Shown here: positions 1 to 64,000 of the stretch, piece by piece | Layout of the letters: every line of letters starts with the position of its first letter | How positions within the stretch are numbered: position 1 is the first letter of the stretch | Assembly: GCF_048771995.1 (NCBI RefSeq) | Contig: NC_133060.1 | Location: 3,529,501 to 3,593,500 of the forward strand | Source of the DNA: Taeniopygia guttata | Taxonomy: Eukaryota; Chordata; Aves; Passeriformes; Estrildidae | DNA: 64,000 nucleotides | Reading direction: 5' to 3' | The notes under the pieces: generated by a model | The model's input: only the letters and a program-made list of their open reading frames with translations | Database searches by the model: none | What the model was told of the DNA's origin: nothing | Program-made: the position numbers and the translations under genes

Positions 1-423
1 GTTACTGGCAGTTCCTCAGCCACCTGCAGTGCTGCACTTGGGAACTGCACACAGGGAGAGATCTGCAAGGCATCCCTAAAAGCCATAGCCCAAGTTGTAT
101 CCACAGAGTATTGAGGCATGGATCACTTCTTCTGAATCCCATACAAAGCAGCAGGGAGTGTGCTCAGAGGTTTGTGAGTGATAGCTGAGACACCACTGTT
201 AGCAAGTGGACACGGCAAAACCTCAGTGGCCCCGTGTCCTGTAACTGGCCTCCAAGGGCGCGGAGCAATGGGCTGTTGCAATGTCAGTTCCAGTTCCTGC
301 AGTGCCTAATCACGAGGCAGTTTGGCACAGATCGGCTGCGTCATTGCAAAATCACTCGCTCCATGTGCCTTGTGGTCTCGTGCCACCAACTTCTCAAGTT
401 ACTGATTTTCAGTGTCATTTTAG

Positions 424-3400
424 GTGGCCATAAAGAAAATAAGACTTAAAGGATTGAAGAGGAAGCAAGTAACCGTTAATGAAATCAGTATCATGAAGAG
501 GCATAGGAGTCCCAGTGTTGTGAATTATTTAGACAGGTGAGTGGTCATGGACTTATCCCATGAATGTGTGTTTACATACAGCAAACACGAGAGGTTAAAA
601 ACCCACTTTGGTCACTTCTAGAAAGTAGAGCTGTTAATTATTCTGTATTAATATTTCTCTACTCATCTCCAATGGATGAGAAGAGAGTGCATCTTGTCTG
701 CATGAGTCTTCCCTGGCGCACGTAGTTCGAAAATTATTCAGAAATTATTCAAAACCTGGATCATCTATATCTTACTAAGTTAATACCCTCTAAGTTCACT
801 GCCTCCACATTTTTTTGGGATAGATTTTTTAAAGTTTCTTAAATGCTGATGAACCATCCTAAAGCTGATTTCCCTTGGATTGTTGCCCTTCTTTTCCATT
901 GCTATGCATGCCAGGAAGACTAGGTGCTTATTTCCAGAAACACCATGCGTGACAGGCTTTTTATCTGGGCTGTTACTAAACCACACTTTCCGCTTGCTGG
1001 CCATCTAAGACATCTCCTTTTTCACAGCTGTTCTTTTCTCCTTGAGACTGCACAGATTGCAAACAACACACAGCCAAGAGGGAATGTCTATTGCTTTGAT
1101 TCTGCCTTTGTCTCAAAGGGACCTGAAAACAAGAATCAACCCCTGTCTTTTCCAAACAGCAATGTAGCCATGTACGTTCATCCCCGTGCCCTTGTTTCCT
1201 TCTTTCAGCTACCTTCTGGGTGAGGAACTCTGGCTGGTCATGCAGTACATGGACGGAGGCACTCTGAGCGATGTCATCAGCAAGACCTGCCTGTGTGAAG
1301 GTGACATAGCATCCATCAGTCAGGAGGTCAGCAATCCCACCTGTGCTTCCAAGGGTTTGGGCAGGATTGTCTGGGAAACAGGGGCTCAGAACAGGAGAGG
1401 TTTCATGTATAAAGCTTTGTTTCTGCATTGCTGGTATGCTATGGGCAAGTAAAAGCATCTCAAGTGAAATGCCTGCCAGTGCCCTCGCACTCACTGTACT
1501 CTGTTCTTGTACTCTTATCTCCTGCTGTTGTATTCTCACTCTGCCTCTTGTATTTGCTGTTCTCCATCTTGCCTCCTTAAACCTTTGCCTGTCTTCACTG
1601 CATTCCTTGCTTGTAAAAGCAAAGGTGCTGGTAGCAGGATTTGAAACGAACAGCAAAGGAAAAAGGGGAGACTCATTTCCCTCAGTCCTCAGCTAAAACC
1701 CATAGTAGTGCAGCCAAAATGCGCTTTGCTTCTGAGCACACCCACTGCAGCAGCAGTCATCCTGGCTGGTTTGCAGGGGACAGTGTACAACAACAGCAGG
1801 TGCTGTTGCTCTTTCAAAAGCTGGCATGCCTTTCCTTAGAAAGGTCCTGCTCTGCAAGTGTTGGAGCAGCAGCTCTTCCTCTCAATGGCGCTGCGTTCTG
1901 CCATTACTCGCCATTCCCCCGCACAGGGCATCTTTTAGATTCTTTGTTTCTTTTCTCGTGCCATGGAATCACAGCGCTCATTTTTGCCCTCCTGTTTCTG
2001 TTTTCTCTCTCAGTGCCTGCAAGGACTGGATTTTCTTCCCTCAAACCACGTAATCCACCGAGATGTGAAGAGCAGCAACATCCTTTTCGGAGCCGACGGC
2101 TCTGTCAAGCTGGGTCAGTATATCCTTGGTCAGGTGCAGTGTTCCAGGGATGTGGGGTGAGGGGCTGCTTTGGGTGACTGCCAGCTCCCCAAAAATGGTG
2201 CTGGGGGCAGTGCAGGGACCCCCCCACTGTGAGCTGATGGCACGGTTGCAATGTGCACAGAGGTATGACGAGGAACAAGCAGCCAAGAGTGGCATTGCTC
2301 TGTGTGTGTCCCTTCCAGAGGGAGGCAGTTACAAGTCTAAAGCTTCCAAAGAACAAAAGCCACTGCTGAAGGCAGTGTAAAAAATGTGGGGATTTTTAAA
2401 GTCACCAATACCATATTTCTTTGGCTAAAGTCCTGAGGAAACAGAGCAGGGACAGTTGTCCAGGACATTCAACAGCACGTTCTCAAACTTCTACTGGGGA
2501 ATTCCTTTGCTCAATTTCCTAATTGCACAGAATTCAAATAAAACCAGTATTTTGCTTTCCCCTCAGCTGATTTTGGCATCTCTGTTGAGCTCGGCCCTGA
2601 GGAGAAGAGACCGTCCTCGGTAGCCGGGACTCCTTGGTGGATGGCGCCTGAAGTGCTGATGCGTGAACCATATGGCCCCAAAGTGGACATATGGTCTTTT
2701 GGAATTGTGGGAATTGAAATGGTAGAACAAAATGTTCCTTACTGGAACCAAAGTCCTGCCACGGTAAGGAGCAAATACTGATCCCGCTTGTCTTTCTCAC
2801 CTGCCCCGTGTTCTGCGTGCCTTTGGACAAAATCCCATTGCCATCTGCTGGAACTACTTCCACCTAAAAATGTCCCTGCAACACATCAGCATCTGCTGCA
2901 GTTTTGGTTGCATCAGTGTGGAACTCAAGCCTTACCACATGCAAACAAACCCCATTCTCAGGCAACACTTTCCTTTGGGTTATAAGCGGTTCCAGTTCTT
3001 TTGTCTGTGTAGATGACCCCAATAGCAGAAACGAGCATCTTAGAACTGGTGTTATCCTTCCAGAAATGAAGGAAAGAACCCCAAACCCAGCAAAGTTTCC
3101 AAAACAGTGGTTTCTAGAGAGGAACTTAACCCCCTGTGCAGTTTCTGCTCACTGGGAAACATGCCTGAAACCTGGGCATGAGGCTTCAAGGCCACAGAGT
3201 CCCTTCTGCTTCTTGTGCAGTGTTGCTGAAACACTTAGTGGCCGTGTTTCTCTCATAGCCCAAGCCACGTTCTCCACGTCACCAAGCCGGAGCCTGGTGA
3301 GGGGGAGAGCCTGCCAAAACCTCCTGTTTGTTTCCTGGCATTTTCTGGGATGGGCCTACCACTCATGCATTGACTTGAGTAGGCAAATGAGCAGAGGGTG

Positions 3401-4220
3401 TCCATAGGGATGGCATTTCTCCTTTTTCTGAGCAGGAAAAGTTTTTCTTTTGCTGCATAAGGGAAGATGAAATTTTTAGACTGCTGAGAGACAGAGCTGC
3501 AGGTGGCTCCTGTGTGCCCAAGCAGGCATTTTCATCCCAATACATTTGTGCATGCATCTTAATGTGTCTGTGTTGAATATGGGATTGTAAATGTTTGTTT
3601 CTTTACCTGGGGATTAACTGATGGATTTCCTTTCTTTTCTTCCAATTACCATAGTTTTCAAGAGCAGGACTAAAAACTTGATGAGTCTTGTTCTATGGCA
3701 ACTGTGCTTAAGGGATCAACAAGCACTGCAGAGATGCCTTTCATGTACTAATCCTTGGAATTAGTTAACATAGCAAAGTCCCCCTTCCAAAAAGGCTGTC
3801 CAGCTGGTGTGACTCCTCAGAGAAGGAAATGTGCTTTTGCTGATGTAGCTCCCACTAACTAGGTCAGTCAATGAAATCGGCTGCCAAGGCAAGATTGGCA
3901 GGATGTTGGCAAAGCTGTGGCTGCATCAGAGTTTGGGTTTTTTGTTGGTAAAGGAAAGTCATCCCTGGGTCTCTGCCAGGGCAGAAACTGCCACTGCAGA
4001 ATGGAGGTTAAACAATGGGCTCTGGAGAGCAGTTACAGATGGGAAAGAAGCAGGTGGAGCCTCGTGTTCCCTTTTTCTCCAGACTAAACACCTGAGAGCC
4101 ACAGCAGGGACGCCTCAGCTGCGGCAGCCCAAGCTCCTCTCGGCTTGGCAGCGTGACTTCCTGAGCTGCTGCCTGCAGAGAGACGAGGAGCGGCGCTGGT
4201 CTGCCGACGAGCTCCTGCAG
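424..4220 (+). CDS. PAK-like Ser/Thr kinase, unit 1 (kinase-domain exons 3-7; 5' part outside window)
   Basis: This is a p21-activated kinase (STE20 group) catalytic domain, expected to phosphorylate Ser/Thr in the cytosol. Exons, all GT-AG and in phase, are 424-536, 1209-1326, 2014-2113, 2567-2763 and 4083-4220. Exon 424-536 has the VAIK lysine and the helix-C glutamate (NEISIM). Exon 1209 has the hinge (VMQY, where unit 2 has VMEY). Exon 2014 has HRDVKSSN. Exon 2567 has DFG, the activation loop [15 protein letters not shown] with Ser at the usual PAK Thr position, and the DIWSFG segment. Exon 4083 is the C-lobe ending in ELLQ. The glycine-loop exons precede the window. No terminal exon follows closely; the nearest candidate is 19232-19321, beyond a provirus. 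Silent intron positions and coding positions differ from unit 2 to a similar extent. Catalytic competence is likely from the motifs; expression is unknown. Confidence 0.85.
537..4082 (+). other. Introns of the unit 1 PAK-like gene
   Basis: The non-coding stretches 537-1208, 1327-2013, 2114-2566 and 2764-4082 hold splice sites and ordinary intron sequence. I see no further exon, RNA gene or complete mobile element in them. Bases 1-423 are the preceding intron, equivalent to 38128-38550 in unit 2. Confidence 0.6.
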
Positions 4221-4344
4221 GTAAAACGCAAAGGGGCTGCAGGTGAAAGAGTGTCCGAGGGATGGGCTCCTCCTCCAGTGAGGCCCGAGGCATCAGATGA
4301 GCCCCCTTCCTCCTCACCTCCTCCACTCTTGGTGCTCTTCAAAT

Positions 4345-8207: not shown

Positions 8208-8624
8208 TGTGAGAAACTACAGATTGAGATATTGTTTATTAAGATATATGTAAAGGTTAGACAACTGTGAGAAAAATACAGACTGAGGTATTCTCTATTG
8301 AGATAAGGTTAGGCCACGGAGGTATGCAAACAGACAACGGACACAGCTGATGCAAGATAAGATCACAACAACCATTCACACCAGAGACTGCTTATACAAA
8401 CACAAGATAACGGCAGGAATTGGCTTGCAAATTCCAGGGAGACAAAAGAAGAAATTGGAATAAAAGGAGACCGTTTGAGCGAATCAAGGTAGCAGTCAGT
8501 GGAGCTTTGGTTTTTGAAGTTCTGTCTACTGCCCAGCGCTGTTACCCTTGTTCATATCCTACTTGCTGTAAATTAATAAAATTCTTAATTGGATTATGTT
8601 CCGTTGTGGCGCAAATTTATAACA
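8208..8624 (+). repeat. 5' LTR of ERV provirus 1
   Basis: Starts TGTGAGAAAC and ends TTTATAACA, matching the 3' LTR. A TATA-like ATAAAAGG lies at about 8460 and the polyadenylation signal AATAAA at 8575-8580. It lacks a 43-base segment found in the 3' LTR. Confidence 0.95.
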
Positions 8625-8629
8625 GTTTC

Positions 8630-8647
8630 TGGTGCTGTGACTCGGAT
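8630..8647 (+). promoter_or_regulatory. Primer binding site, tRNA-His type
   Basis: TGGTGCTGTGACTCGGAT, five bases after the LTR. It differs by one base from the tRNA-His primer site known from HERV-H-type elements. Confidence 0.8.
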
Positions 8648-9058
8648 AAGGAAGGGTGGGCTTTTGATCCTCCGGGGAAAGGCGCCCCGCGACATTTCGC
8701 GGCCCCGTGATCAACAGCTTACCCCAACCTTACCGACGAACCTAAAATCTAGGATAATGAACAAAGGAAAAAACCGGTAAAACCCCATAAAAATTCTGTG
8801 CACGGGAGTCCGGACAAAGATGCAGGACGCGTAAGTATATTGCGAAATTATTCACAGAGCGAAATTGTTCGCGGCGAAATTGTTTGCGGGTTTGCCGTTC
8901 GGGCGGGATTGGGTTTCGTGGAATATAACGAATGAGAGGTTCGATATACTGAACCAAGCAAGTGTGGACTCTTAAGTACTGCGTTTTCCATCTCCCGCGA
9001 GGGACTGGGCCAGGAACAAGAGGAGCGAGTGAGTGTGTGTTTGTGGATATTCCAGAAG

Positions 9059-10478
9059 ATGGGGGCGAAGGGCAGCAAGCCTTCGACTCCCATGGGGGGG
9101 GTACCCTCTGTACCTAAGAATACCCCTCTGGCATATATCTTAGATAATTGGAAGTATTTCCCTGGAACCCTAGGGAAAGATAAGCAAAAAATGATAGAAT
9201 ATTGTACTAAGATATGGGGAGGGAAGAAGATTTCTAAAAATGTCATTTGGCCAGTTTATGGGTCAGAAGAAGATTGGGTAAGACAGCAATTAAACCTCTG
9301 GGTTAATAATAAAAAATTCTTTAACCCGGAGGAGAGTCAATATGCGGAAGTGTGGCTAGAAAGACCGGGGGCTAGACTTTATCCGTTGAGTGAAATAAAA
9401 ACTAAACACCAGAAAAAGAAGGAAGAGTTAGACGAAACCCTTCTAACCCACCCTCCTTATATTCCTCCTCCTGTTCCCGCAGCCCCTCCAGAGGTCCCCA
9501 GAGCGCCCACTCCCCCACCAGAATCCGAACAAGGGTCCCCACCCCCTTCTAGACATGTAACTAGAAGTCAAAGAGGGGCAGCTCAGATGTACCCCCTAAG
9601 GGAAGTACCTATGGGAGGACCTCAACCTGTGGTTGGATATATTTCTGTACCCTTAAATTCTGCCGACTTACGAGATTTTAAAAGAACCGAGATGGGAAAT
9701 TTAGTTGAGGACCCACTCGGAGTAGCAGAAAGACTAGATCAATTTTTGGGACCAAACCTTTATACTTGGGATGAGATGCAATCTATCCTTGGTCAATTAT
9801 TTACTACCGAGGAAAGAGATATGATTAGACGAGCAGGAATGAGACTGTGGGATGCTCAGCATGCCCAGGGACCTCAAGCAGATATTAAATGGCCACTCCA
9901 AAGACCTAATTGGAATAATCAGGATCCGGCGCATAGAACTCACATGCAGGACCTGAGAACTATAGTAATTCAGGGAATTAGAGAAGCAGCACCCCGTGGG
10001 CAGAATATTCAATAAAGCATTTAATGAAATGCAAAAGAAAGATGAAAGCCCTACTGAGTGGCTGGAACGGCTGAGGAAAGCCCTTCAGCTGTACTCTGGG
10101 GTAAATCCAAACGACCCTTTAGGACAAGCGCTCCTCAAAACTCAGTTTGTGGCAAAATCATGGGAAGATATCAGAAAGAAGATTGAAAAGTTAGAGGACT
10201 GGCAGAATAGAGGGTTGGATGAATTATTGAGGGAAGCTCAGAAAGTCTACGTAAGGCGGGAAGAAGAGAGCAGCAAGCGACAAGTAAGAATGATGGTAGC
10301 AGCGGTCAGAGAGGATCGCAAAGGGCGAACTGGTGAACACAGATCTGCTAGGATGAAACAAGGAAAGGTAGTAATAGAAAAGGAACAGAGATCTTGTTTT
10401 TACTGTGGAAAGAAGGGACATATAAAGAAGAATTGCAGAGAAAGGATCAGGGACGAGGAAAATTTGAAAACGGAATAG
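9059..10478 (+). pseudogene. gag: gag of ERV provirus 1, one frameshift
   Basis: The gag polyprotein builds the virion core. The start chosen is ATG 9059 because it gives MGAKGSKPS, a myristoylation-type N-terminus; an upstream in-frame ATG at 9029 lacks this. A proline-rich segment with late-domain-like PPY and PP stretches follows (about residues 135-175), then a capsid-like region. The frame breaks near 10000: the first frame stops at 10013-10015 and the continuation is read in another frame up to 10478, so one base was gained or lost. The second part carries a single CCHC zinc knuckle (CFYCGKKGHIKKNC) near 10396-10440. It ends in TAG at 10476-10478, in frame with pol. Confidence 0.9.
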
Positions 10479-13400
10479 GAAAGTCAGGGGCTCTATATTT
10501 TAGGGGACCGGAGCCACCATGAGCCCTTGATAAAATTAAAAATAGGTCCCCATAAACAAGAGTTCACCTTTTTGGTAGACACTGGGGCTGAGAAATCAAC
10601 TATTAAGCAAATACCTGAGGGATATAAAGTTTCCCCTGAAAAGGTACAAGTAATTGGGGCAAAAGGGGAACCCTTTAAGGTAAGTAAAATCAAAAATGTG
10701 GTATTCGAAACTGAAAATAAATTTGGAATAGGTGAACTCTTGCTCGTCCCTGAAACAGAATTTAATCTGTTAGGACGAGATTTAATTGTTGAACTGCAAT
10801 TAGAAATTAAAGTAAAAAATCAAGAGTTGGCAGTATCTGCTTATCCTTTGACTGTGGATGATCAAAAACAAATTAACCCCAATGTCTGGTACTCTCCGGA
10901 CACAATTAGTAGACTGGAAATGCCACCGATTAAAATCCAAATTTCCGAACCCCACATACCTGTGAAAGTAAGGCAGTATCCCATATCCTTAGAAGGACGG
11001 AGAGGATTGAAGCCAGAAATTGATCGATTGTTGGCACAAGGAGTCTTAGAGCCTTGTATGTCACCCTTTAACACCCCCATTTTGCCTGTAAAAAAACCTA
11101 ATGGGAAATATCGGCTCGTACATGATCTAAGGGAAATAAACAAAAGAACTATCACTTGGTTCCCTGTAGTAGCAAATCCATATACATTGCTAAGCAAACT
11201 AGGACCACATAATTCCTGGTATAGTGTGATTGATTTAAATGATGCCTTTTGGGCCTGTCCGCTGGCAGAAGAATGCCGTAATTATTTTGCTTTTGAATGG
11301 GAAGACATAGAGACGGGCCGGAGACAGCAATTAAGATGGACCGTGCTCCCCCAAGGGTTCACTGAATCCCCTAATCTGTTTGGACAGGCTCTAGAAGAAC
11401 TCTTAACAGAATATCAGGTACAAACGGGAAATGTGCTGTTACAATATGTAGATGATCTGCTCATAGCAGGGAATAATAAGGAGAATGTAAAGAAAGAAAC
11501 CATTCGACTCCTAAACTTTCTTGCACAAAAGGGACTACGGGTATCACAAGAAAAGTTACAATTTGTGGAGGAAAAAGTGAAATATCTGGGACATTATCTG
11601 TTTAACGGCCAGAAGATATTAGATCCAGAGCGTATTAAAGGAATTCTGGAATTACCTATGCCTGTCACTAAGAGGCAAATTCGGCAGGCATTAGGACTAT
11701 TTGGGTATTGTAGGCAATGGATAGAGAACTACAGCTTTAAAGTTAAATTCTTATATGAACAATTGCCTAAAGGAAAAATACCCAAGTGGACTCCTCAGGA
11801 TCAAGAGCAGTTTGCCAGTCTCAAAAGGGAGCTAAGTCAAGCACCAGTTTTAAGTCTCCCAGATTTAAAACGGCCATTCCATTTATTTGTTAACATACAT
11901 GAAGGAACGGCATTCGGAGTGTTAACTCAGGAATGGGCCGGACAAAAGAAACCGGTGGCATACCTATCAAAGCTGTTAGACCCTGTGAGCAGGGGTTGGC
12001 CGAGCTGTTTACAAATCATTGTTGCTGCTGCCCTATTACTTGAGGAAACAAATCGCATTACTTTTAATGGAGAAGTTATCTTATATGCGCCTCATAACAT
12101 CAGGGGAGTGCTACAACAAAAAGCAGAAAAATGGTTTACAGATAGCCGATTATTAAAGTATGAGGGAATACATATAGAATCCCCTAAACTATCTTTAAAA
12201 ACTATTGGAGCAGTTAACCCCGCTGAATTTTTGTACCCAGGAGAAGGTAATGAACTATTGCACAATTGTTTTCAAACAATTGAACAACAAACACGCATTA
12301 GGTCAGACTTAGAAGAAGAAGAACTACAATGTGGAGAAGTATTATTTATAGATGGGTCATCACGAATAGTGGAAGGTAAACGATTGTCTGGATATGCCAT
12401 TGTTAAGTGGGAAAAAGGAGAATTTAAGATAAGGGAGTGCCAGCTGGTCAGCACAAGCTTGTGAGCTATATGCATTGTGGAAAGCATTAGTGTCGCTGAA
12501 GGGAAAGGATGGAACTATATATACAGACTCACATTATGCGTTCGGAGTAGTACACACTTTTGGGAAAATATGGGAGGAAAGAGGATTTATTAACTCACGG
12601 GGAAAAGAGCTGGTACACCAGGAATTAATTCGGCGAGTTCTGGGGGCATTGAAAATGCCAAATAAAATAGCAGTTGTACATATAAAGGGACACCAGCAAG
12701 GTACAAGTTATCAAGTTAGGGGAAATAATGCAGCTGATACAGAAGCAAAACGAGTGGCAGGCAATTATAATATAATTCTGACTATGCAACAAGTACCTGT
12801 TAGTAAAAATTTGAGTTTTGAGACTGCAGAAAAAGAAAAACTAGAACAAATGGGAGCTAAGGAACAGGATGGGAAATACATATTGCCAGATGGGAGAGAA
12901 GTCTTGCCGAAGGGCATAGCAATTGAAATATTTTCAAAAATACACAGCAAAACACACTGGGGAACTCAGGCGTTAGTTGATCATTTCAATCGACGGTATG
13001 CCTGTATAGGCGTATATAATATAGCAAAGACAGTCACGGCAGCCTGCGAGACCTGTCAAAAGGTTAATCGAAAAAACATAAAACAGAGACCTCTTGGGGG
13101 ACGTTCCCCAGCATACAGACCTTTCTCACATATACAAGTAGATTTTACTGAACTACCTAGAGTAGGGCGTTACAAATATTTATTAGTAATGGTGGATCAT
13201 TTAACACATTATGTTGAGGCTTTTCCTACCTCCAGGGCAACCACTAACCAAGTCACTAAAGTGTTACTTGAACATGTTATACCTCGATATGGAGTACCTG
13301 AAGTAATCGACTCGGACAGAGGAACGCATTTTGTGTCAAAATTTGTTAGAGATCTGACAGAAAGCTTGGGTATTAAGTGGGAATACCATACACCATGGCA

Positions 13401-13947
13401 TCCACAAAGTTCAGGAAAAGTTGAAAGGATGAATGGAGAAATTAAAACTATTTTGACTAAACTGATGATAGAAACCAAATTATCATGGATTAAATGCCTA
13501 CCTATGGCACTATTAATTCTCAGAACCAGACCCCGAGCAGATGTAGGAATATCAGCGTTTGAAATGGTGTATGGAATGTCCTACAGAATTGAAAGCCCAC
13601 AAACAAATGTTTTAATTAGAGACCGTGTGATTAATGAATATGTTTCACAATTAGCAGAACATCGTAACCAGCTTTGGGAACATGGACTGATTGTGCAACG
13701 ACCCCCGTTGGACTTAAAAATACACAAAGTTAAACCTGGGGATTGGATATTGATTGAAGTGTGGAAGGAACAAACCCTAAAACCCAATTGGGAGGGACCT
13801 TATCTCGTTTTGTTGACAACAGAAACAGCTGTCCGGACTGCTGAGCGTGGATGGACTCATGCCAGCCGCATTAAAGGCTCAGTGACGAGACCCCACTGGA
13901 AAGTAATCAGTACTCCAGGTGACACCAAGATAACTCTAAAAAGATAA
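10479..13947 (+). pseudogene. pol: pro-pol of ERV provirus 1, one frameshift in RNase H
   Basis: The pro-pol frame follows the gag TAG without a shift, the arrangement that gammaretroviruses use for stop-codon readthrough. Order: protease with LVDTGAEKS (DTG at 10578), reverse transcriptase with LPQGF and YVDD (about 11445-11456), RNase H starting LFIDGSS, integrase with HSKTH and CETC zinc ligands, catalytic D/D/E segments and a WEGPY tail. The frame breaks near 12440: the first frame stops at 12462-12464 while the RNase H continues in the next frame to 13947. The lesion removes most of RNase H and integrase from the translated product. Everything else is open. Confidence 0.93.
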
Positions 13948-13951
13948 CGAA

Positions 13952-14092: not shown

Positions 14093-14102
14093 GCATATGT
14101 AG

Positions 14103-16593: not shown

Positions 16594-16610
16594 TAAACAA
16601 TAATAGGATA

Positions 16611-16628: not shown

Positions 16629-16629
16629 T

Positions 16630-49261: not shown

Positions 49262-50135
49262 ACCAGCCCAGGACAGCAACAGGGGGCTGGGGATGGAAAC
49301 TGAGCACAGCAACAGGGGCTGGTGATGTTTGCCTGTGAAGGAACCGAGTTGCCACAGGCACTCAGAGAGGTTCCATGGGGACTTCCCAAGTCTCCAGGCT
49401 CTTCAAGAGCTGGAATGTCACACACAGAGAGACAGGGGCTCCGTGGAGACCTGCCAGGGCTTTCTGGGGATGGTAAGGAGCCGAGTGGTCAGAGGCAGTC
49501 ACAGCCATTCCATGGTGACATCCCAGCGCACCTTGTGCTGCAAAGGCACCGGTCTGTCACGGGCACTCACAGGGGCTCCACGGTGACATCCCAGGAGTGC
49601 CCAGGCTGCCAAAGAGGCGGGAGGTCCCAGACACTCACAGGAGTTCCTGTCTATTGTAAATGCAGGCAAACCCAATGGGAAGAAATGATGATGTCTGACT
49701 CACTTCAGAAGGCTGAATGATTTCTTTATTATAATTATGGCTAAAATACATTAATATACTATATGAAAAGGAAGAGACTAAAACTACATACTGCTTTCTC
49801 TAATTCTATCTCTAACTATAACACAACTCGTGACCCTCTCTCCAGAGTCCAGACAAGGTGGGTTGGATTGGCCATCAGGCTCAAAGAATCCTCACCAGAA
49901 TCCAATCAAGCACTCACTCCACGTAAACAATTCTCCAAACACATTCCACATAGGAAAAACAAGGAGCGGAAATAGAAGTTGTTTTCTCTTTCATTTCACT
50001 CTGTGCACCTCTATGAAAAATCCTGAGAGGGAGAGAAATGTGCTGCCACACCTGTCATGGGCAGAGTGGGAGCTTCAGGCAAAAGTTTAGTTTCTTTATT
50101 GGAGAAATTCCTGCTGAGTCATGAGGTGGAAAAAT
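49262..50135 (-). repeat. Inverted repeat, right arm, split by an LTR-like insertion
   Basis: Reverse complement of 45690-46130. It is continuous with the left arm across 49262-49645 and again from 50057; the 400 bases between are an insertion (see 49652-50050). Confidence 0.85.
49652..50050 (-). mobile_element. LTR-like insertion with 6-base target duplication
   Basis: Flanked by CCTGTC at 49646-49651 and 50051-50056. The uninterrupted left arm of the inverted repeat has CTGTC once at the matching point, so it shows the empty site. On the minus strand the element starts TGTGGCAGCACATTT; TTTATT near 49722 is a minus-strand AATAAA. Six-base duplications are usual for class II LTRs. Probably a solo LTR. 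Confidence 0.7.
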
Positions 50136-50179
50136 GGCTTGGACTTTGGTTACAGGTACCTCTTCTAACTCTTCACTGT

Positions 50180-50757
50180 CTTTTTCCATCGTGTGCTATG
50201 ACCGCTACCTGTCCATCTGCAAAGCCCTGCACTACGGGACCCTCCTGGGCAGCAGAGCTTGTGCCCACACGGCAGCAGCTGCCCGGGCCAGTGGATTTCT
50301 CTTTTCACTGCTGCACCCGGCCAAAACATTTTCCCTGCCCCTGTGCCAGGGAAATGCATTGGGCCAGTTCTTCTGTGAAATGCCCCAGATCCTCAAGCTC
50401 TCCTGCTCCAAATCCTATCTCAGAGAACATGGGTTCATTGCCCTTAGTGCCTGTTTAGCATTTGGGTGTTTTGTGTTCATTGTTTTCTCCTATGTGCAGA
50501 TCCTCAGGGCTGTGCTGAGGATCCCCTCTGAGCAGGGACGGCACAAAGCCTTTTCCACCTCCCTCCCTCACATGGCCATGCTCTCCCTGTTTGTCAGCAC
50601 TGGCACATACTTGATGCCCCTTTCCATCTCCTCCCCATCCCTGGATCTGGCCCTGTCAGTTCTGTACTCGGTGCTGCCTCCAGCCCTGCATCCCCTCATC
50701 CACAGCCTGAGGAACCAGGAGCTCAAGGCTGCAGTGTGGACACTGATGACTGGATGA
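50180..50757 (+). pseudogene. Olfactory receptor, family 14-like, 5'-truncated
   Basis: The frame reads from the DRY motif (CYDRYLSICKALHYG) at the end of transmembrane helix 3 to the C-terminus, with the conserved FFCEMPQILKLSCS loop, the FSTSLPHMAMLSLF segment of helix 6, LPPALHPLIHSLRNQEL of helix 7, and a stop at 50755-50757. Helices 1-3 are missing; upstream is the inverted repeat. Avian receptors of this large (gamma-c) group share these motifs. The remaining frame is uninterrupted, so the truncation is probably not ancient. A few conserved positions differ (LIHSLRN rather than LIYSLRN). Without helices 1-3 it cannot form a receptor. Confidence 0.92.
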
Positions 50758-51872
50758 TTTCAGGAACACTAAACAGCTGGCCAATTTTTGCAAATCGCTT
50801 GTAATAAAAGTCATCTTTGGTACTTCTTTTTGTTTCATTTTGGAGGTTCTTTTTATTTGTAATACACATTTAACATTGTCCTCAAAAAATGTCATTGCTT
50901 GTGCCATTTCTCACTTTGTTTCACTCCACCTTCTCTGCGGCTACAGACTGTGTCAATGAGGTGCTGCGCTCTCAGTGACTTTAAAGGAACTAAAGGCTGT
51001 CCCAGCACAGTTTTCTGCAGAGATGCCCTTTTGTTGCCTTCTCTGGAGCTGCAGCAGCAATGTCCCAGAGCGTCCTCATGGAGCTGCCAACAACCTCCCC
51101 CCTCTGCAGCCCTGGCCTCTCCCCCAGCTCACAGAGGTGCCGCATCCTTGCAGGCACAGACACGGCAGCACTGGCTCAGCAGCCCCTGTTTGCACTGCAC
51201 ACAGCAGGCGGGAGCACCCCATGGTGTTGGTGTGGGGACATGGACCTGAGGCAGCACAAATGCCATCAGCCCCTGGGGCCAGGAAGGGCTGGGGGATGCC
51301 AGGGAAACCACTCAGCTTTGTCCTGGCCTCTGCAGTCAGCCAGAAAGTTTGTTCCCATCAGCTGGGAGTTTCCTGTCCCACTGCAGACGCTGCTGCTCAG
51401 AGCCAGGGCTGCCTGGCAGCCACCCCCAAACTGCCAGGAGCCTTTCCTTGGCTTCACTTTTTCTTTCTTTATTCCCCCTGCTACAGATTTCTTCCTGCTG
51501 CCCGCCCCTTTTCCCTCTCCTGCAAGCTGCCCATCCCTGTTTGCTCTTTCCTCTCTGGCCTCCAGTCCCCAAATTGGCACCAGAACCTCTCTTAGGGAGC
51601 AGGATCATCCTACAAGTGCTGCAGGAATTGTCTGCAGGCTCCTGCACTTCTCCCTGCTGCTCCCTTGCCAGAGGCACCCCAGGCCAGGGGGGCACATCTG
51701 GGCTGCTGTGTCTGGCTGTGGGGCTCCCTGTTCTAGGCAAGGAGCTGCAGAGGCTCTGCAGGACTGACAGGATGGGCTTTGGGGCTGTGAGGAGAAGCTG
51801 AGGGACCTGGGTTGATGCATCTTCTGAAGAGGAGGCCCAGGGCTCATCCTGCAACTGCTCCAAGGGTGGTTT
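50758..51872. other. No gene seen
   Basis: 3' flank of the receptor remnant and unassigned sequence; an AATAAA-like TGTAATAAAAG occurs near 50800. No exon or element recognised in 50900-51870. Confidence 0.35.
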
Positions 51873-52450
51873 CAGAGAATCACACAATCAGCAAGGTTGG
51901 AAAAGACCTTGGAGATCATCAAGTCCAACCTCTGTCCTGACACTGCCTTGTCTCCCCTGAACCTTCTCTTCTCCTGGATAAACAACCCCAGCTCCTTCAG
52001 CCGCTCCTCACAGGAATTGTGCTCCACACACCTCACCAGCCTTGTTGCCCTTCTCTGGACATGCTCCACCCCTCCATGTCCTTCCTAAATTGGTGGCCAA
52101 GAACTGGACACAGCACTCGAGGTGCTGCCCAACCAGTGCTGAACACACAGGAAGAATCACTGCCCTGCTGCTGCTGGCCACACCATTCCTGATCCAGCCC
52201 TGATCCATTGGCCTTCTTGGCCACCTGGGCACACTCTGGCTCATGTCCAGCCTGCTGTCCAGCAGTCCCTGCAGGTCCCTTTCTGCCTGGCTGCTGTCCA
52301 GCCCCTTTGTCCCCAGCCTGTAGCACTGCAGGGGTTGTTGTGGCCAAAGTGCAGGACCCGGCACTTGGACTTGTTAAACCTCACATTGCTGGATTTGGGA
52401 CCTCTGCAGAGTCCTCCTACCCTCCAGCAGATCAACATTCCCAGCCAGCT
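51873..52450 (-). mobile_element. CR1 LINE 3' fragment, minus strand
   Basis: Plus strand begins AGAATCACACAATCAGCAAGG and continues TTGGAAAAGACCTTGGAGATC and so on through CACAGCACTCGAGGTGC and TTGGCCTTCTTGGCCACCTG. It is interrupted on its right by the 40-base minisatellite. Confidence 0.88.
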
Positions 52451-52460
52451 TGGTGTCACC

Positions 52461-52740
52461 AGGCACGGCCTGTCCCCCTGGCCCAGCAGCAGGGGACAGG
52501 GGGCACGGCCTGTCCCCCTGGCCCAGCAGCAGGGGACGGGGGGCACGGCCTGTCCCCCTGGCCCAGCAGCAGGGGACAGGGGGCACGGCCTGTCCCCCTG
52601 GCCCAGCAGCAGGGGACAGGGGGCACGGCCTGTCCCCCTGGCCCAGCAGCAGGGGACAGGGGGCACGGCCTGTCCCCCTGGGCCAGCAGCAGGGACAGGG
52701 GGCACGGCCTGTCCCCCTGGCCCAGCAGCAGCCCCGTGCC
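52461..52740. repeat. 40-base minisatellite, about seven copies
   Basis: Unit: GGGCACGGCCTGTCCCCCTG followed by GCCCAGCAGCAGGGGACAGG, period exactly 40 (52501, 52541). It grew at the edge of the CR1 fragment. Confidence 0.95.
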
Positions 52741-53159
52741 CTGCCCAAGGCGCTCCCAGCAGGGGCTGGGCCCCAGAGGCAGGGGGAGACCCCAGTCCCG
52801 GGGCAGCGTTTCTGCCCCGTCCCCTGTCCAGCCCAGCCTGCCCCGTGTGCGCAGTGACCGCTGGCACGGGCTGCACTGGACACTGTGACCTGCTGGGGAC
52901 ACTGAGAGCTGCCCCGCTGTGACACTGCCGATAAACATGTTGAGCTAAGACAAGGATGGGGACATGGGGGGGATCTTGCAGGGGATGTGGGGGATGCTGG
53001 GTTTGAGGGACTTGAGGGTTCCTGGGAGGGACCTGGGAGTTGCTCAGGGCTTTGGGCACCCCAGGCTGAGCGGCTCCAGTTGCACTGGGAGACCCTGGTG
53101 GAGGTTCTGGGCAGCTGGTCAAGGAGCCCCTGCCCTGGAACTGTCCCCATGTGCCCCCA

Positions 53160-53461
53160 TCCCAATGCCCGGTCCCCCTGCAGTGGCTGCCCCATTCCTT
53201 ACTCCCCTTCCATACTCCCCTTGCCCCTGCCTGTTCCCATGTCCCCCCATCCCGTTCCCGTCCTGCTCCCATCCCAATCCGGACCCAATTCTTGATCCCT
53301 GTTCAGTATTCCCTGTCCCTGTCCCCATTCCCAGTCCTATTCCCTGTCCCCATTCCTGGTCCCTGTCCCCATTCCCTGTCTCTGTCACCACTCCCAGTCC
53401 CTGTCTCCATTCCCATTCCCCATTCCCTGTCCCCATTCCCATTCCCTGTCCCCATTCCCGG
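53160..53461. repeat. C/T-rich simple repeat
   Basis: Degenerate repeats of CCCATTCCC / TCCCTGTCC type. Bases 52741-53159 before it hold no recognised gene. Confidence 0.8.
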
Positions 53462-54107
53462 TGAGACATTAATTTGGAAGAATTAAGAATTTTAGGAAGT
53501 TAAGATGATAGTTAAATGAGTTGTTGCTGACTCATCGGAAGTAGATAAATAGGCTTTGTTCCTAGTTAACAGTAGCTGGATCTTAGATAAGATATCCAGG
53601 ATCTATTAACTCATTGCTTCTCAGCTTTATGTTTGGGTAGCTGTGCTTATCATGAGAAACAGAATGTGACAAACAGATTTCAGGGACACAAAAATAGTTG
53701 CAGACTTCCCATACTTTAGGAATCCATTAAGCACAGGAAAACGGCAAGGATTCATTTGTCACGTGTGCATGGGAAAGGCAGAAAGGTCAGAACGAGGAAG
53801 ACTTATTTTACTTCTTCATTTTGGAGACCCCTCCCCAAAATGGACCCCCGACTCATTTCAGGGAACAGAACTACACATGGTTAATAGCCTTTCTGCCAAT
53901 TAGCATCTGAAGCGGAGCAGAGGAAGTGACAGGGATATGAATATGCATTCATATTTTGTGTATTCAAGACTTCTGTCAATAAAAAAGCTTTGTAATACCT
54001 GTGATTTTTGCAGTGTGAATTAGGGAATTGTCCCAGGTACTGCCCGGCTGTCCCAATAAATATACACTTTCTAACTTTAAACTCTTAGAGAGTTTTTGTC
54101 TGTCTCA
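53462..54107 (+). mobile_element. Probable LTR with perfect terminal inverted repeats
   Basis: Begins TGAGACA and ends TGTCTCA, exact reverse complements, spanning 646 bases. AATAAA occurs in CAATAAATATACAC about 55 bases before the end and a TATA-like stretch in the 3' half. No partner LTR or target duplication is seen. It lies about 220 bases before the left edge of unit 3. Confidence 0.6.
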
Positions 54108-54682
54108 GTTGGATATCGATATTAGATCGATATTCATATTTTAGTAAACCATTGTCTTAAAGAAGTCCTAGTATGTGTATATGTCTTTTCTTAATATTCT
54201 AGTAATTATTCTTGCACTGCTTCAAGATAAACTGGTATGATTCAAAGAATATCCACTGAGGTACACATAGAACATGGAGTTTTCATAAGCAAATTGCAGT
54301 TGCAAAGTTTTTTCACAACTGTTTTTACTAACAGTTTTTCTGTTTACAGACTGTTTTCTGGGAGTTCGGTTTTTCTCCAAGGGATCAAGTGCTTAAAGAT
54401 TGTTTTTAAAATTGTGTTTTTCTCTAAGGGCTAAATGGGCTCAGGGTTAAATAGCTTTCTGCTTTTAGAGATAAGTTCAATTTGTAACTGAGAAGCATTA
54501 TGCCTGTGGCCTGAGTTCTCCCCTAACAGTTCCTGGAGGGGAATGCTGCAGCTCCAGTGTAAATTAGATGCTCGCTGTCCTCTGTCACCATGTTTGCAAA
54601 GGGCCCTTGCAGATGGGTGACAGAGAACAATGCACAGAATTTTATAAAGAAAAGAAGGGTGAGATGTTACCATGATTGACAG

Positions 54683-56728: not shown

Positions 56729-59700
56729 ATGAATCCAGGCAGTGACGCAGAGCACAGACCTGCGAGCGTGCCCAAGCTGGCCTGGGGGAAGGAGGAGAAA
56801 GAAGGCCCTGGAGCTGCCCCAGCACAGCAGCCTGAAGAGGTGGAGCAGTTCCAGCCACCACAGAAGGGTGAGTGGCAGAGCTGGGCCACAGGGCTGGTGC
56901 CTGCAGCCAACTTGGCCCCATGCCATGCCATGCCATGCCATGCCATGCCATGCCATGCCATGCCATGCCATGCCATGCCATGCCATGCCATGCCATGCCA
57001 TGCCATGCCATCCCATCCCATCCCATCCCATCCCATCCCATCCCATCCCCTGGGGCCATGCCCATGGACAGGATGGAATAGGGGCCGGGCAGACACCCCA
57101 CAGCCGTGCTCCATGCCCTGGGGCGGCGCGGGGCTGTCCCTGCCTGGGCAGCGCAGGGCTGGGCTGTGTTCTCCGGCCTCTCCCGCAGCCCCTCAGCTCG
57201 GGCTGCGCTCGCTCTTTGCCAGGTGCAGCCGTGCAGCGCACACGAGAGCAGGAACGCACCCGTGGCCGCTTCCGCAGAACAGCGCAGGTACCTGCAGCCA
57301 TCCCCACCTGGGCTGGGCCTGCTGGCACTGCTCAGCCCAGCACTGTGCTCGGAGCACTCCATGCAACATCCCGGGCTTCTTGCCCTTCTGCTACAGATGG
57401 TTTGCAAATTCATGAAGAGGATTCGGGAGGAAGAGAGCAGCGTCGTGGGCACTGTGGTCAGAGCGTACTCTCCCATCTTCAAAACCAAGGCCAGTGCTGC
57501 CCTGCTGGATATGCTTGTGGAGGAGGGTCCTTCCAGCCCAAAGCAAGTGAGCAGCCTGTGGCCTGGCTTTTCTCCTCCCAGCAGTTGTGTGGCCTCCCAA
57601 GCCACGCCTGCTGCTCCCTGGAAGCCTTTGAGGCCATGGCAGTGTGGTGGCAAGGGAAGCACTTCTCTGGGGCAGCTGGGCACATTCCTTCCTCTGGCAG
57701 CTTTCCAAGTCTCCCCTGCCTTCTCCAGGTGCCGGCCATGGTGAGGTACATCCACCAGTGGCTGGTGGCCAATGAGTTTCCTGAGTACAATCTGTACAGG
57801 CCCCTTCTGGATCTGACAGAGGCACAGCCCTGTGACGTGGTGATGGCTCTCCTGCGTGTGGCCCCAGTGTGTGACAGGTACGGGGCCCACGTGTCCACAA
57901 GGCTCAGCAGCCCTTCACCCTGTACAGCCTGTCCCAGGTGTCTGACCAACAGAGAATTCCAGGGCCCTCTGGCTGCTCCCTTTGCCAGCCCTGGCCCCTG
58001 CCAGCCCCCCAGCATGCTGCCATGCTTCCCCCCTGCCCCTCAGGGGCCAGTCCCCACAGGGCTGGGCTGCCTGCGTGCTGCCAGTGAGGGGCAGTGGGCA
58101 GAGGCAGGGCTGGCAGAGCAGCTCAGCTCCCCGCTGCCACCCAGGCCACGCTGCTGTGTCCCAGACTCCTCTGAGACAGAGCTCTGACCCCACAGAGCTG
58201 CTTTGGCCATGTGGAAGAGCATCATGTGCACACCCAGGACTGCAGAGCCGGCCATGCTCGTACTCCTCGAGGTGCTGGGGAGCTGGCCAGAGCACAGCAC
58301 GTGCACCTCCGATGGGGACCACACGGCTGTCCTTGCCCTGGCTGTGAGTTTCTGCCTTTGCCGGCCCCAAGGCCACCTCTCCAGCAGCTCTCCATCCTCC
58401 CTCCCCCACGGCGTCTCCCTGCCTCAGGCGCTGGGCTGAAACCTGGCCTCGGGGCAGCTTCAGGGCCACCAGGCCCGGTGCTCCCCCTTCGGTGCTCCCC
58501 CTGCGTCTCTCCGGGCCTCTCCCTCCCGTACTGGGCCCTGCCACACGGACACCTCGGCACTGAGCGCTGTCTCGGGCTGCTCTGTCCTTTGCAGGCAACC
58601 GTGGTGATGTGGAAGATCCTCCAGCTGCCCTGTGTGCCACATGTAGTCACCGTGTGTTTCCCCTGCCTCTTTGTGCATCTGCTCTTCCAAGTGCTCTTCA
58701 GCACTCTGGATATGCCAGAGGAGGTCGATACCTTCTGGGAGGGATGCCAGCAGCAACACGGCATTGCCACCAACCCCAGCAGGTGCTCCATGCCAGTCCT
58801 CCTGTCCTTGCCACATCCCTGGGCAGGGGCCAGTGCCCCCAGCGTGACCTGGGCTTTGCTCTGCGCACAGCTTTGCAGAGCAGACCCTGAAGGCCCTGCT
58901 CTGCCGACTGCACTATGAGGATGTGGTGGTGGCCATGGAAGACAAGGGTGGCTGGGACACACTGCTCTGTGCTGACACCCACCACTGTGCTGTGGGCGTG
59001 CTGGCCAGGTGAGACCCCCTGCTCCCCAGCTGTCCCTGGCATGTGTGCCCTGTGCCCCAGGTGCCCCACACAGTCCCCGTGGCCGTGGGCCAGAAGCCCT
59101 TGTCACCAAGGGACGGCCAAGGAGGCTGCAAAAGGCTGGGAGAGGAGCGTGCCCAAGAGCAGCAACCTCCCAGAGGGCTCAGCTGCCCCTTGCAGGGTGC
59201 TGGAGAAAGGCCAGACCTCTGTGAGGCAGTCCTGGGAGAGGTTTGCCCCCGCTGGCTCAGGGGTTTGGCTCCTATTTCCTCCTGTCAGAGAAATGCACCG
59301 CGCATCCGAAGCCGTGTGTTCCGCGATTGCATTCCAGCTGCTCGGGCTGCTCAGCAAAGACACGCCATGCCGGGATTTGGCCGCCCTGGCGTTCCTTGTG
59401 GAGGTGAGCCTGAAGGCCAGCGCTGCCTCGCTCAGCTGCCTCCCGGCTCTCTGCCCTCTCTTGGCCGCAGTGCCTGGGACGGAGCCCGCGCCCTGTGCTG
59501 CTGCCTGGGCCCGGCCCTGTGCGGTTCTGGGCTCCCGCCGGCCGCTCCCCCGTCACTGCCCTGTGCCTTTCAGATCCTGGAGCGCCTGAACCTGAGTGAA
59601 TGCCGTGACAGCGTCCTGGAGTTCTTGTCAAAGAACCTGCAGAGCGAGTGCAGGGGGAGGCGTCGCTTGGCACTCAGAGGCCTCGTGGTGCTCGGCACCA

Positions 59701-61605
59701 CCAGTGCCTCGGTGAGAAGAGCGCAGGGGCTGAAGCCGTGCTGCCAGCGTGGGGCTGGGGAAGGCAGTCCCTGGGGCTCGGCTGGCCTTGGGGCACTGAG
59801 GCAGCTGCTGCCAGCTCTCCTGCCTCCTGCTGCAGCTGCCCGAGTGCTTTGGCACAGGCCTTTGGCCCCTGGGCCCTGTGGCAGCAGGATGGTGTTTCAC
59901 ACACTTGTGTTCCACAAGTAGATGGCCAGAAGGATGTGGAGCCTGCATGAAAGGCTCGTGGAGCTCCTGCAGGAAAATGACGGCGTCATGCTCAGGATGA
60001 CCACGGTTCTCCTCAGGGGTTTATTTCTCTGCAAAGAGGCCCCAATGACCAGCACCCTCGCCCTGCAGCTGGCTGAGGCGCTCCTGCCACTCTTTGACAA
60101 CGTAAGGCTCTACGCCTCCAGCCACGGCCAGCGGGTGCTACCCGCACACTTTGTGCCCTGTGCACTTACAGGCTGTGCCCAGGTGGGCCTGAAGCAGCTG
60201 ACGCTGAGGTCTTTCTTCCTTCCTTTCATACAGGAGGATAGCCAGGTGCAGTTGAGCTCCATGTTTATCTTCCGAGACATGCTGGATCGTTTTCCAGAAG
60301 AGGAAAAAAAGGCCCTGAAGGCACACGTGCGCCAGAGCCTGCTGCCACTCTCCTTCCACTGCCATGATGAGAACCAGCGAGTGGCAGAGGTGAGGACTCG
60401 GCAGCTGCTGCTGTTCCCCTGGCAGGGGCTGGGCTGCCCCTGCCCTGGCACCTCGCAGGCTGCAGCCTCCTGCTAGCCTTGGCACAGGGACGGGTCCTGC
60501 GCCCTGGGCTGTGGGGCCATCTCCGCGTCTCTGCTGCTCTCCAGGCTTCTCAGGAAACGCTGCTTTGTGCGGCCGAGTTCCTGAAGCAGAGGGATCTCGA
60601 AAAGCTGCTGAAGAACCAGAAGCCGTGGAATTTCACCGAGTGCCTGGTAAGGAGGGCCGGGAAGCCGCAGCCCCAGCCTGGAGAAGCCCCCTGAGCGTGG
60701 TGCTCGGTGTGCGGGCTGGCAGCTGTGCCCCTGCCCGCTGCTGCAGCCCGAGGCCGCGCGGGCTCTGCTCCAGGCTCCTGCGGCCCGAGCCGGGTGCCCA
60801 TGGAGCCCCGGCCCGGCGGGGCTGCGGGGCCAACCCTTCCCTCCTGCCGCTCTCTGCAGCTGGCAGAGGACAGCAGCAGCGTGGCCGAGCACCTGCGCCG
60901 GGCCCTGCCCTACCTGCAGAGCCCACAGGAGCCCCTGCGAGAGGCGGCCGTCAGGTTCATGGGTGAGCCACGAGCCGGGCCAGGAGGCCGTGTGGGCACA
61001 GGGCTGGCAGCGCCGCTGGCAGGGAGCTGTGCCGCCGGGCCTGACAGGCTCTGTGTTCCCAGGGACGGCCGGGCGGTACCTGAGGGGGAGGAAGGAAGAG
61101 CTCCAGCTCATCTCTGAGGGTGAGTGAGGGCAGCGGGCTGCCAGCGGGGGCTGGCACGGAGCTGCGAGCCCTGCCCCGGCTGCGGAGGGCTCTGCTCCCT
61201 GTGCGGACCAGGGGCGGCGTGGGCAGAGCACACAGAGGTTTCAGGGCACCTGGGGGATTCCTGGCCAGCAGCTTCGGGCTGATCCAGCTGGTCCCTGCTC
61301 CCTGCTGGCCATGGCCAGAGCCGGCTGGGATGGCCCTGGCACAGAGTCCCCTCGGGTCCCCTCAGATGTGGGAACTGACCATGGCTCTGTTCCTCTCTCT
61401 TTCAGCCCTTGAAGGCATGGCCAATGACATCAGTGTCCCTGTCGGAAGCCTGGCAGTTCAAACATTGTACGTCCTCCAGGAAGCAGAGAGAGCTCCATAC
61501 TCCATCTTTGACAACCTGCATGATCGGCTCCGCAGGGCATGGAGGAGACGGCCTCGTCTGTCGGGGCTCGGCTGGCTGCGCTGCTGGAGCTCTGCAGAGA
61601 GCTGA
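56729..61605 (+). CDS. Maestro heat-like repeat (MROH) family protein, unit 3
   Basis: Same 15-exon structure as the unit 2 copy, all splice sites and phases kept: 56729-56867, 57223-57287, 57397-57546, 57729-57877, 58196-58343, 58595-58782, 58871-59008, 59289-59403, 59574-59711, 59922-60101, 60234-60389, 60545-60646, 60860-60962, 61063-61119, 61406-61605; 675 residues. It differs from unit 2 at 25 residues by hand count, seven of them in exon 10 (59922-60101), while five other codons differ silently. Exons 7, 9, 13 and 14 are identical. The HEAT-like solenoid motifs ([52 protein letters not shown]) are intact. Exon 10 acceptor is TAG just before ATGGCCAGA in both copies. Confidence 0.88.
56918..57049. 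repeat. (CCATG)n-(CCATC)n microsatellite, unit 3
   Basis: About 18 CCATG units followed by about eight CCATC units; unit 2 has only CCATG. The long minus-strand open frame across it is antisense to the MROH gene. Confidence 0.97.
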
Positions 61606-62786: not shown

Positions 62787-63109
62787 GTGGGCCAAAAGGA
62801 CGCAGGGGTGCCGGTCAAGAGCAGCTGAAGGTGGGCCAGTGTGTGGCCAGGTGGCCAAGAAGGCCAAGGATGCCCTGGCCTGTGTCAGCAGCAGTGGGGC
62901 AGCAGGAGCAGGGCAGTGACCGTCCCCCTGGGCTGGGCAGCGCTGCGGCCATGGCTGGGAGTGCTGTGTCCACTTGTGGGCCCCTCTGAAGCAGAAAGTC
63001 CTCGGGGGGCTGGAGTGTGTGCAGAGAAGGACACGGGAGCTGGGGAAGGCTGTGGAGCACAAGGCCATGGAGGAGGTGCTGAGGGAGCTCTAGCCTGGAC
63101 AACGGGAGG
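62787..63109 (+). mobile_element. CR1 LINE fragment, plus strand, unit 3
   Basis: Counterpart of 36640-36962, again ending just before the first kinase exon. Confidence 0.8.
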
Positions 63110-63112
63110 AAA

Positions 63113-63937
63113 ATGGTGAACATGGAAAATCCCATGATGAAATACACTGAACTGGAAGATATTGGCAAGGGGTGAGTCCAGCCACAGTTACTTCTACACA
63201 ACCATGGGCCAGATGTTTTGCTGGTATATCAGGTGTTTCACTGGAAGATCGATCCAGTGTGAACTCAGGCCAGCTGCAAATGTGTTCAGATACTGGGGAT
63301 AGATTGTCCCATCGCTTCAGTGCTGCTCAGAATTTGTGTGTGTGCTCAGAAAGCATTGTCAGCGACATCTCCATGCTGCTGAGGTCTTGCCTGCATCAAG
63401 GAACAGGACCTGGAAGATCTCCTTGTCTCTCAAGTGTGGGACAGCTCTATGTTAACTTCTTTAGCATTTTTGTATGTCTCAAAATCACACTGCCACACTA
63501 ATGAAAAAAGAAGAACCTTGCTTGCCTGAAAGAGCAACCTACCCCCTATCAAAGCTGTGAAATAACAGTTCTCAGGAACATTTCTTTCCCATGGTTTGTG
63601 GAAGGAAATATTGCACGGTCAGGATAGGAACCACACAGTTTAGAAACTGAAACCCAAGATGAAAGAATAAATTCCCTTTAGGAGCTGAGGCAGTAAACCC
63701 CAACGCTTCAGCAACCGGCCCAGACACTGCCCATGCACTTGAGAGGAAAAAGGATCATCTGCCTTCTGACAGAGCCCTCCTGCATCCTGCAAGTTTTAGG
63801 CATTTACAGCAGAGATCTCCTGAGTGGGCTGGCTTTCACTCTAAGAAATAAACAGCTTCTCCCTTCTCTGCTTCTGTTTTGTTTCTAGGACTTTTGGACA
63901 TGTGGTTAGAGCACTCAACAAAGCCACAGGAAGAGAG
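63113..63937 (+). CDS. PAK-like Ser/Thr kinase, unit 3 (first two exons; continues past window)
   Basis: Exons 63113-63171 and 63889-63937 with GT-AG sites encode the kinase N-lobe start: KYTELEDIGKG joined to TFGHVV, the glycine-rich loop. Against unit 2 it has Lys to Met, Val to Ile and Gly to Arg changes at three residues. The remaining kinase exons would lie after the window. Confidence 0.8.
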
Positions 63938-64000
63938 GTAAATGTCAACAGCCCCCGCAGACTCTGCTGCACCCAAGGGGCTTTCTCCTCTGGTGTGGGC

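Follow-up and report, generated by a model that had tools for sequence, protein, structure and literature searches.

How do genes of two different families come to be multiplied as one? The question is raised by a stretch of 64,000 nucleotides of zebra finch (Taeniopygia guttata) DNA, hereafter the window, in which a gene of the maestro heat-like repeat (MROH) family is followed on the same strand by a kinase gene resembling the p21-activated kinase PAK3, and in which the pair recurs. The genome that we searched has 1,140,912,852 bases in 41 contigs; the window is positions 3529501-3593500 of one of them, C37 (NC_133060.1), which is 4,882,500 bases long. We argue, with good though not complete confidence, that the pair is a chimeric segmental-duplication unit: a single joining event, and then segmental amplification with exchange among the copies. 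What makes the locus useful is that an event physically joining two expanding songbird gene families can be read here to the base, with an apparent empty state preserved in the same array.

The repeat unit and its two genes

A first-pass annotation of the window had proposed three copies of a 17.4-kb unit, each a pair with its PAK gene about 1.5 kb behind the MROH gene. Self-alignment of the window confirms the three copies (A, B, and C): B matches C (28117-37853 against 54324-64000, 97.1% identity), and A matches B in two blocks (1-5950 against 38128-44087, 97.8%; 6428-8207 against 43741-45499, 97.2%). Within the window, copy A is PAK only and copy C is mostly MROH; once neighboring C37 sequence is included, with the MROH gene of copy A to the left (C37:3519366-3527672) and the PAK gene of copy C to the right (C37:3594148-3598345), all three are complete pairs. 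The 17.4 kb survives as the shared core of copy B but not as a period, the spacing being 26.2 kb from B to C and 38.1 kb from A to B. The 1.5 kb is borne out by our exon models of copy B, from the MROH stop (35457) to the PAK ATG (36966) on the same strand.

28117..45499, + strand: copy B of the 17.4-kb core that the repeat units share, from self-alignment
31250..35457, + strand: MROH-like gene, copy B, from tblastn and a splice-site model; 13 exon blocks, M1-M11 (M7 is three blocks); 607 amino acids
36961..36962, + strand: 5' join, where the MROH 3' flank meets the PAK segment about 4 bp ahead of the PAK start codon; the two overlap by two bases, GG
36961..43239, + strand: the unit's 6.28-kb PAK segment, broken off on its 3' side at about 43239, ahead of native exon P8
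36966..42470, + strand: PAK3-like kinase gene, copy B; exons P1 36947/36966-37024, P2 37742-37790, P3 38551-38663, P4 39336-39453
Later exons of the same gene, + strand: P5 40141-40240, P6 40694-40890, P7 42210-42347, then a read-through tail with stop codon 42468-42470
424..4220, + strand: exons P3-P7 of PAK copy A, whose P1-P2 and MROH gene lie left of the window
57397..61602, + strand: MROH copy C, exon blocks M1-M11, from the exon model
63094..64000, + strand: PAK copy C, first two exons; the rest lies right of the window
18640..19318, + strand: remnant of an older PAK 3' end (its two last exons), with about 67% identity to the unit's PAK

The MROH model uses GT/AG splice sites and an open frame from the ATG at 31250, with one or more upstream N-terminal exons uncertain: annotated MROH proteins extend further N-terminally than the 607 residues modeled, and a candidate first exon (M0) upstream of M1 clashes with it in phase. 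The copy B product is 97% identical to annotated T. guttata proteins (nr). In a domain search a partial query scored 24.4 bits for HEAT_Maestro, below the cut-off of 27.4, and full-length MROH homologues carry PF21047 and PF23227, which places the gene in the Maestro HEAT family. All 12 copies read (8 full and 4 partial, of at least 49) are free of stops and 11 are free of frameshifts; exon M7b has a stop in 1 of 49 C37 copies. The 5' region holds an array of about 25 copies of the pentamer CCATG (window 30771-30896 and 56918-57046), inside which some annotated MROH proteins start (MPCHAMPCH...). A few kilobases upstream of MROH copies there are also minus-strand fragments of another kinase (VLHRDIKAQ..LIDFG; L010 at C37:3414792-3415294 and L020 at 3515385-3515885), which we take to be possibly PIM-like.

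For the PAK gene of copy B, the closest solved chain is PAK3 (E 5.5e-83, the query's last exon being borrowed from the remnant at 19.2 kb) and the Pkinase domain scores 4.4e-53. With its P-loop, VAIK, HRD, DFG, and APE motifs, the translation is that of a PAK3-like, group I p21-activated kinase. No convincing N-terminal p21-binding or regulatory exon was found in the stretches searched by tblastn with an approximate full-length PAK1 query; the regulatory domain is also reported absent from PAK3L genes (PMC13060935). Neither was the C-terminal exon P8 (HPFL..PLI) found in the unit; it is present in the PAK gene of contig C33 and in the 19.2-kb remnant, and in the unit it is replaced by intron read-through ending at the stop at 42468. 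With this tail the kinase is 295 amino acids long. An annotated T. guttata protein (P0121) has nearly the same sequence and the same kind of intron-derived tail. The frame is open in all five full PAK copies that were read, with every splice site intact in four, and exon 6 is stop-free in 25 of 25 C37 copies.

The junctions

Where, then, does one gene's territory end and the other's begin? We defined the join against the PAK genes of contigs C40 and C33 and against MROH copies that have no PAK. At the unit junction the MROH flank ends ...CTTTAGCCTGGACAACGGGAGG and is followed by AAAATGGTGAACATGG, with the ATG at 36966. PAK-free MROH copies read ...CAACGGGAGG and then CTTGTGAGGGACC at the same place, and the flank that marks this probable empty state is CTTGTGAGG. 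The PAK genes have ...CCCTCAGGGAAAATGGTGAAC in C40 and ...TCCTCAGGGAGAATGGTGAAG in C33, and both keep CTCAGGGA.AATGGTG where C37 has MROH flank. The unit's PAK is without the native 5' splice acceptor and upstream part (by comparison with C40 and C33), as well as without the last exon (by comparison with C33). On the 3' side C37 departs at about 43239, and C33 and C31 stay alike over the roughly 35 bases compared beyond, the C33 gene continuing to exon P8.

In five of five PAK-free copies read, the divergence begins at the same base as the join. Judged from the sequence, this break is probably the empty state before joining. Both PAK-free copies that were mapped then run into the older PAK remnant, which lies convergent to their MROH gene (C37:3.43 and 3.61-3.62 Mb).

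Two other ideas about the junctions were tried and dropped. Capture of a poly(A) signal was suggested by finding neither AATAAA nor ATTAAA from the MROH stop to the PAK ATG. Chance alone would put no more than 0.08 of each in that interval, however, the PAK-free flanks that were read have no such signals either, and a TATAAA lies 95 bp past the stop, so that the test is uninformative. A dispersed 2-kb mobile element was suggested by the likeness of window 41250-43238 to C31 (95%), and the C33 gene identifies this as PAK 3' sequence.

Copies and linkage across the genome

Copies of MROH were counted by exon M7b (the best 150 of 430 candidates) and copies of PAK by exon 6 (the best 150 of 346, the C40 number by subtraction); all counts are lower bounds, and what follows concerns the matches listed. 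C37 carries an array of at least 49 MROH and at least 25 PAK copies over 1.5 Mb, on both strands, and thus has the many near-identical multigene units on one chromosome that characterize an ampliconic array. There are 97 MROH matches of at least 82% identity, 49 of them on C37 (2.23-3.74 Mb) and 48 on other contigs (C34 9; C32 8; C33, C31, and C27 6 each; C36 and C18 4 each; C35 3; C26 and C39 1 each). The 25 PAK matches on C37 are 96-100% identical; next come 5 on C40 (82-85%) and a further 101 there (55-69%, for a C40 total of 106), and 7 lie on C26, C33, C11, C6, C1, and C35. About two thirds of the MROH matches and most of the PAK matches thus lie outside the C37 array.

Two groups stand apart. 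Among the remaining 53 MROH matches, 31 form a diverged group on C18 (48-50%, C18:562643-2822612, mostly with identical scores), a contig without a listed PAK exon-6 match. Twelve PAK matches on C4 (69%, identical scores, one strand, about 110-140 kb apart, C4:11383824-12754634) are a second, regular PAK array; no MROH match is listed on C4.

On C37 the linkage is complete: MROH sequence lies upstream of 25 of 25 PAK copies, which upholds the first-pass proposal that the two were amplified there as one linked unit. An earlier count against the best 40 MROH DNA matches had given 18 of 25, and the remaining 7 were then read. The M7b exon itself lies upstream on the same strand in 22, at 6.2-8.3 kb and in 18 of these at 6.92-6.95 kb; the other three (C37:2755686, 3027039, and 3046126) have MROH 3' sequence, with deletions that include M7b. 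The join was read directly in 12 of the 25 (A, B, C, 3.460 Mb, 3.638 Mb, L002, L031-L035, and L037); 12 others rest on the near-constant spacing to an MROH match, and the sequence of L036 ended 99 bp before the join. Conversely, 27 of the 49 C37 MROH copies have no PAK exon 6 downstream: 5 were read as PAK-free, 1 was read as PAK-deleted, and 21 are unread.

Does the same pair occur elsewhere? No MROH match is listed within 25 kb of any of the nine exon-6 matches outside C37 that were compared (5 on C40, 2 on C33, 1 each on C26 and C35), and MROH is absent from the 10-kb stretches of the two such loci that were read (L029 on C40, L038 on C33) and from a C31 stretch with a PAK 3' fragment. C40 is a Z-like contig of 82,218,670 bases. 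Its single listed MROH match (22.444 Mb, 49%) and the PAK match at 22.487 Mb are 43 kb apart, and a loose MROH-PAK neighborhood therefore does occur at least once there. Three of its five PAK intervals at 63.15-63.46 Mb are 59.1 kb, which is the unit size given for one zebra finch Z array in the available part of PMC13060935.

We also listed PAK 3' fragments (the best 40 of 244 candidates), of which 16 lie outside C37, 4 of them with MROH within 8 kb. Two of these four looked like the same pair, with MROH in the same orientation 7.1 and 7.5 kb upstream (C35 and C31), but they have a minisatellite at the expected join; the other two (C34 and C35) have MROH on the downstream side. The minisatellite, of the TGTGATGTCACAC type, lies between MROH and PAK 3' fragment in L039 (C31:1855001-1857200) and L040 (C35:3542301-3544500), and it also occurs downstream of PAK in the C37 unit (window 5786-6801 and 43937-44092).

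In the proteins of other birds, a MROH domain was found in 0 of the 120 best listed PAK-like proteins and a kinase domain in 0 of the 120 best listed MROH proteins, and the nearest listed PAK proteins of other songbirds reach 77-78%. So far, the joined unit has been seen only on the C37 array, with the caution that for most birds the assembly of tiny chromosomes is poor. The larger proposal, that linked amplification would explain the songbird expansions of both families, is not supported: C40 and C4 hold the majority of the listed PAK matches and, between them, one listed MROH match. By the annotation's own terms its claim would fall if copies elsewhere were never adjacent; on other contigs they largely are not, among the matches listed, which limits the claim of linkage to C37, where they are.

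Divergence, selection, and exchange

Eight MROH copies differ pairwise by 1.0-2.4%; their exons (1824 columns) have 1 indel event and their introns (2401 columns) 6. Between 7 PAK-side and 5 PAK-free MROH copies there are 0 fixed differences in 2860 gene columns, and in the 3' flank there are 0 in 669 (13 PAK-side rows, copy C twice, against 5 PAK-free). The four-gamete test is failed by 808 of 1830 informative site pairs. Exchange among copies seems the simplest reading of this homogeneity, with recurrent mutation as a partial alternative. The C37 PAK and its C40 relative are 88.5% identical over 4.2 kb, with an intron divergence of 9.6%, dN 0.108, dS 0.101, and 63 substitutions with no stop or indel in 212 codons.

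Several results weigh against our interpretation or against a role for the genes within it. A search of the window behind the PAK segment did not find the flank of the PAK-free copies, which argues for a rearrangement rather than a clean insertion. At 0.10, the dS against C40 is much larger than the variation within C37, and the C40 gene sampled is thus a relative and not a proven donor. MROH exons and introns have diverged about equally in the eight copies (1.66% and 1.75%), the pooled MROH dN/dS is 0.70 (58 nonsynonymous changes where 64.0 are expected, SD 4.1, with 177 of 2000 shuffles as low), and the PAK dN/dS is 1.03 among five copies and 1.07 against C40, in a gene that has no native last exon. 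By these measures selection for function appears weak, as would be expected of young copies whose frames are open and under little measurable constraint. Differences between the two MROH types slightly exceed those within them, though not significantly (a value as large in 41 of 300 shuffles; in the 3' flank, 2.4% between and 2.0-2.2% within). The four-gamete failures do not clearly depend on distance (a value as low in 59 of 1000 permutations), and recurrent CpG changes could contribute to their number.

Could it all be an artefact, one or two loci or haplotypes falsely duplicated in assembly? Copies that are 97-99% alike are near within-species diversity, and on the zebra finch Z the PAK3L arrays are reported to have been gaps in the assembly (PMC13060935). 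A haplotype duplication yields two copies at most, though, and here at least 49 MROH and at least 25 PAK copies stand on one contig with differing flanks, orientations, and deletions; the 1.0-2.4% among the eight MROH copies, together with both orientations and different flanks, makes assembly duplication very unlikely indeed. It is less farfetched, but still improbable, that the PAK-free copies are secondary deletions from an ancestral MROH-PAK unit, the pair then being older than the array. Such loss is common, as the deletions and changes at L032, L034, L035, L036, and L037 attest; one MROH copy (C37:3472-3480 kb) retains the join and has lost P3-P7, and 6 of the 27 MROH copies without exon 6 were read. 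But chance deletion would not give a shared break base, and all five PAK-free copies read break exactly where the C40 and C33 PAK homology begins. MROH copies also outnumber PAK copies on C37, 48 close MROH relatives are listed on other contigs, and none of the nine outside exon-6 matches has a listed MROH neighbor.

The remaining rival is one that we take seriously, as a possibility that we lean against: that the unit is a neutral repeat in which both genes are nonfunctional hitchhikers, their frames open only because the copies are young. A PAK dN/dS near 1, exons that diverge about as fast as introns, and the missing terminal exon and native upstream region are all what it predicts. It sits less well with the 63 substitutions from C40 that include no stop or indel, with exon 6 free of stops in all 25 C37 copies listed, and with a single M7b stop among 49.

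How the unit may have arisen

From the break common to the copies, we infer an order of events. The donor would have been a PAK3L gene of the same kind as those on the Z-like C40, joined once, by a DNA-level rearrangement with 2 bp of microhomology, within one MROH copy of a pre-existing MROH array. The joined unit would then have spread inside C37 by unequal exchange and inverted duplication, with gene conversion keeping MROH copies alike whether or not PAK is present.

And is a kinase made? With the native acceptor and upstream region absent, PAK, if expressed, must use MROH-side sequence: a putative promoter there or read-through, with the intron-derived tail at the end of the protein. Such expression would probably be germline, by analogy with what is reported for PAK3L. 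One might go further and imagine that a promoterless, tail-truncated PAK became MROH's downstream partner, the pair being kept and multiplied as one expression unit (through read-through or spliced RNA), probably in the germ line, as a tiny-chromosome counterpart of the Z-linked PAK3L arrays that could join sex-chromosome or meiotic conflict. This is speculation, and we think it rather unlikely as a whole. The array nonetheless makes questions about ampliconic genes testable: whether MROH transcription serves PAK as well, whether gonads transcribe the pair, and how the kinase is spread or removed by exchange among copies.

Neighboring elements

Further features of the window are as follows.

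8208..17089, + strand: endogenous retrovirus; gag p30, protease, and reverse transcriptase (RT) domains; two long terminal repeats
22149..27641, - strand: second endogenous retrovirus; RT, integrase, and env domains
45500..54323, + strand: B-C spacer, parts of it also in other repeat units; olfactory receptor-like open reading frame at 50125-50757

The A-B spacer holds both retroviruses and the older PAK remnant. The first retrovirus shares its 3' junction with that remnant with C37:3603327-3615654, and its two flanks in the window have no matching short duplication; either it was duplicated along with the array, which seems to be the case, or there was a rearrangement of its 5' flank. Parts of the B-C spacer recur beside other C37 copies, once partly inverted. 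The copy at C37:3630861-3634380 has, in the opposite orientation, the stretch of unit spacer that lies between two inverted repeats (window 45768-46126 and 49293-49651). A predicted Hirundo rustica protein (P0276) has kinase and olfactory receptor domains together, and the unit in the window also has its olfactory receptor-like frame downstream of PAK; the protein may be a gene-prediction fusion of neighbors.

Comparison with known systems

A linked MROH-PAK unit was not found described in the open-licence literature, some of it judged by title, and neither MROH nor maestro occurs in the main texts of PMC13060935, PMC13320880, PMC12954441, and PMC4377847 where these were word-searched. In the available part of a study of the blue tit germline-restricted chromosome, PAK1 and MROH1 are both named as exceptions in isoform number (PMC10172847); that part states no adjacency of the two, and germline restriction is not indicated for C37.

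The nearest relatives of our array are the PAK3L arrays of the zebra finch Z chromosome. These were reportedly described by Kong et al. in 2010. As far as the account in PMC13060935 is available, they too are multicopy, kinase-only genes in large repeat units, mostly without frameshifts, and they too have co-duplicated genes specific to each cluster, very probably in the same species. In the C37 array, by contrast, the contig is small and is not the Z-like C40, the passenger is MROH, and the PAK gene, joined immediately ahead of its start codon, is without the native acceptor and the last exon. The other comparison is with the wider avian MROH family, with whose members in other birds the 607-residue product is 45-77% identical (best 120 listed), many of them named maestro heat-like repeat 5, 6, or 7. 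From that family C37 is set apart by its concentration of near-identical copies, 22 of 49 with PAK exon 6 downstream.

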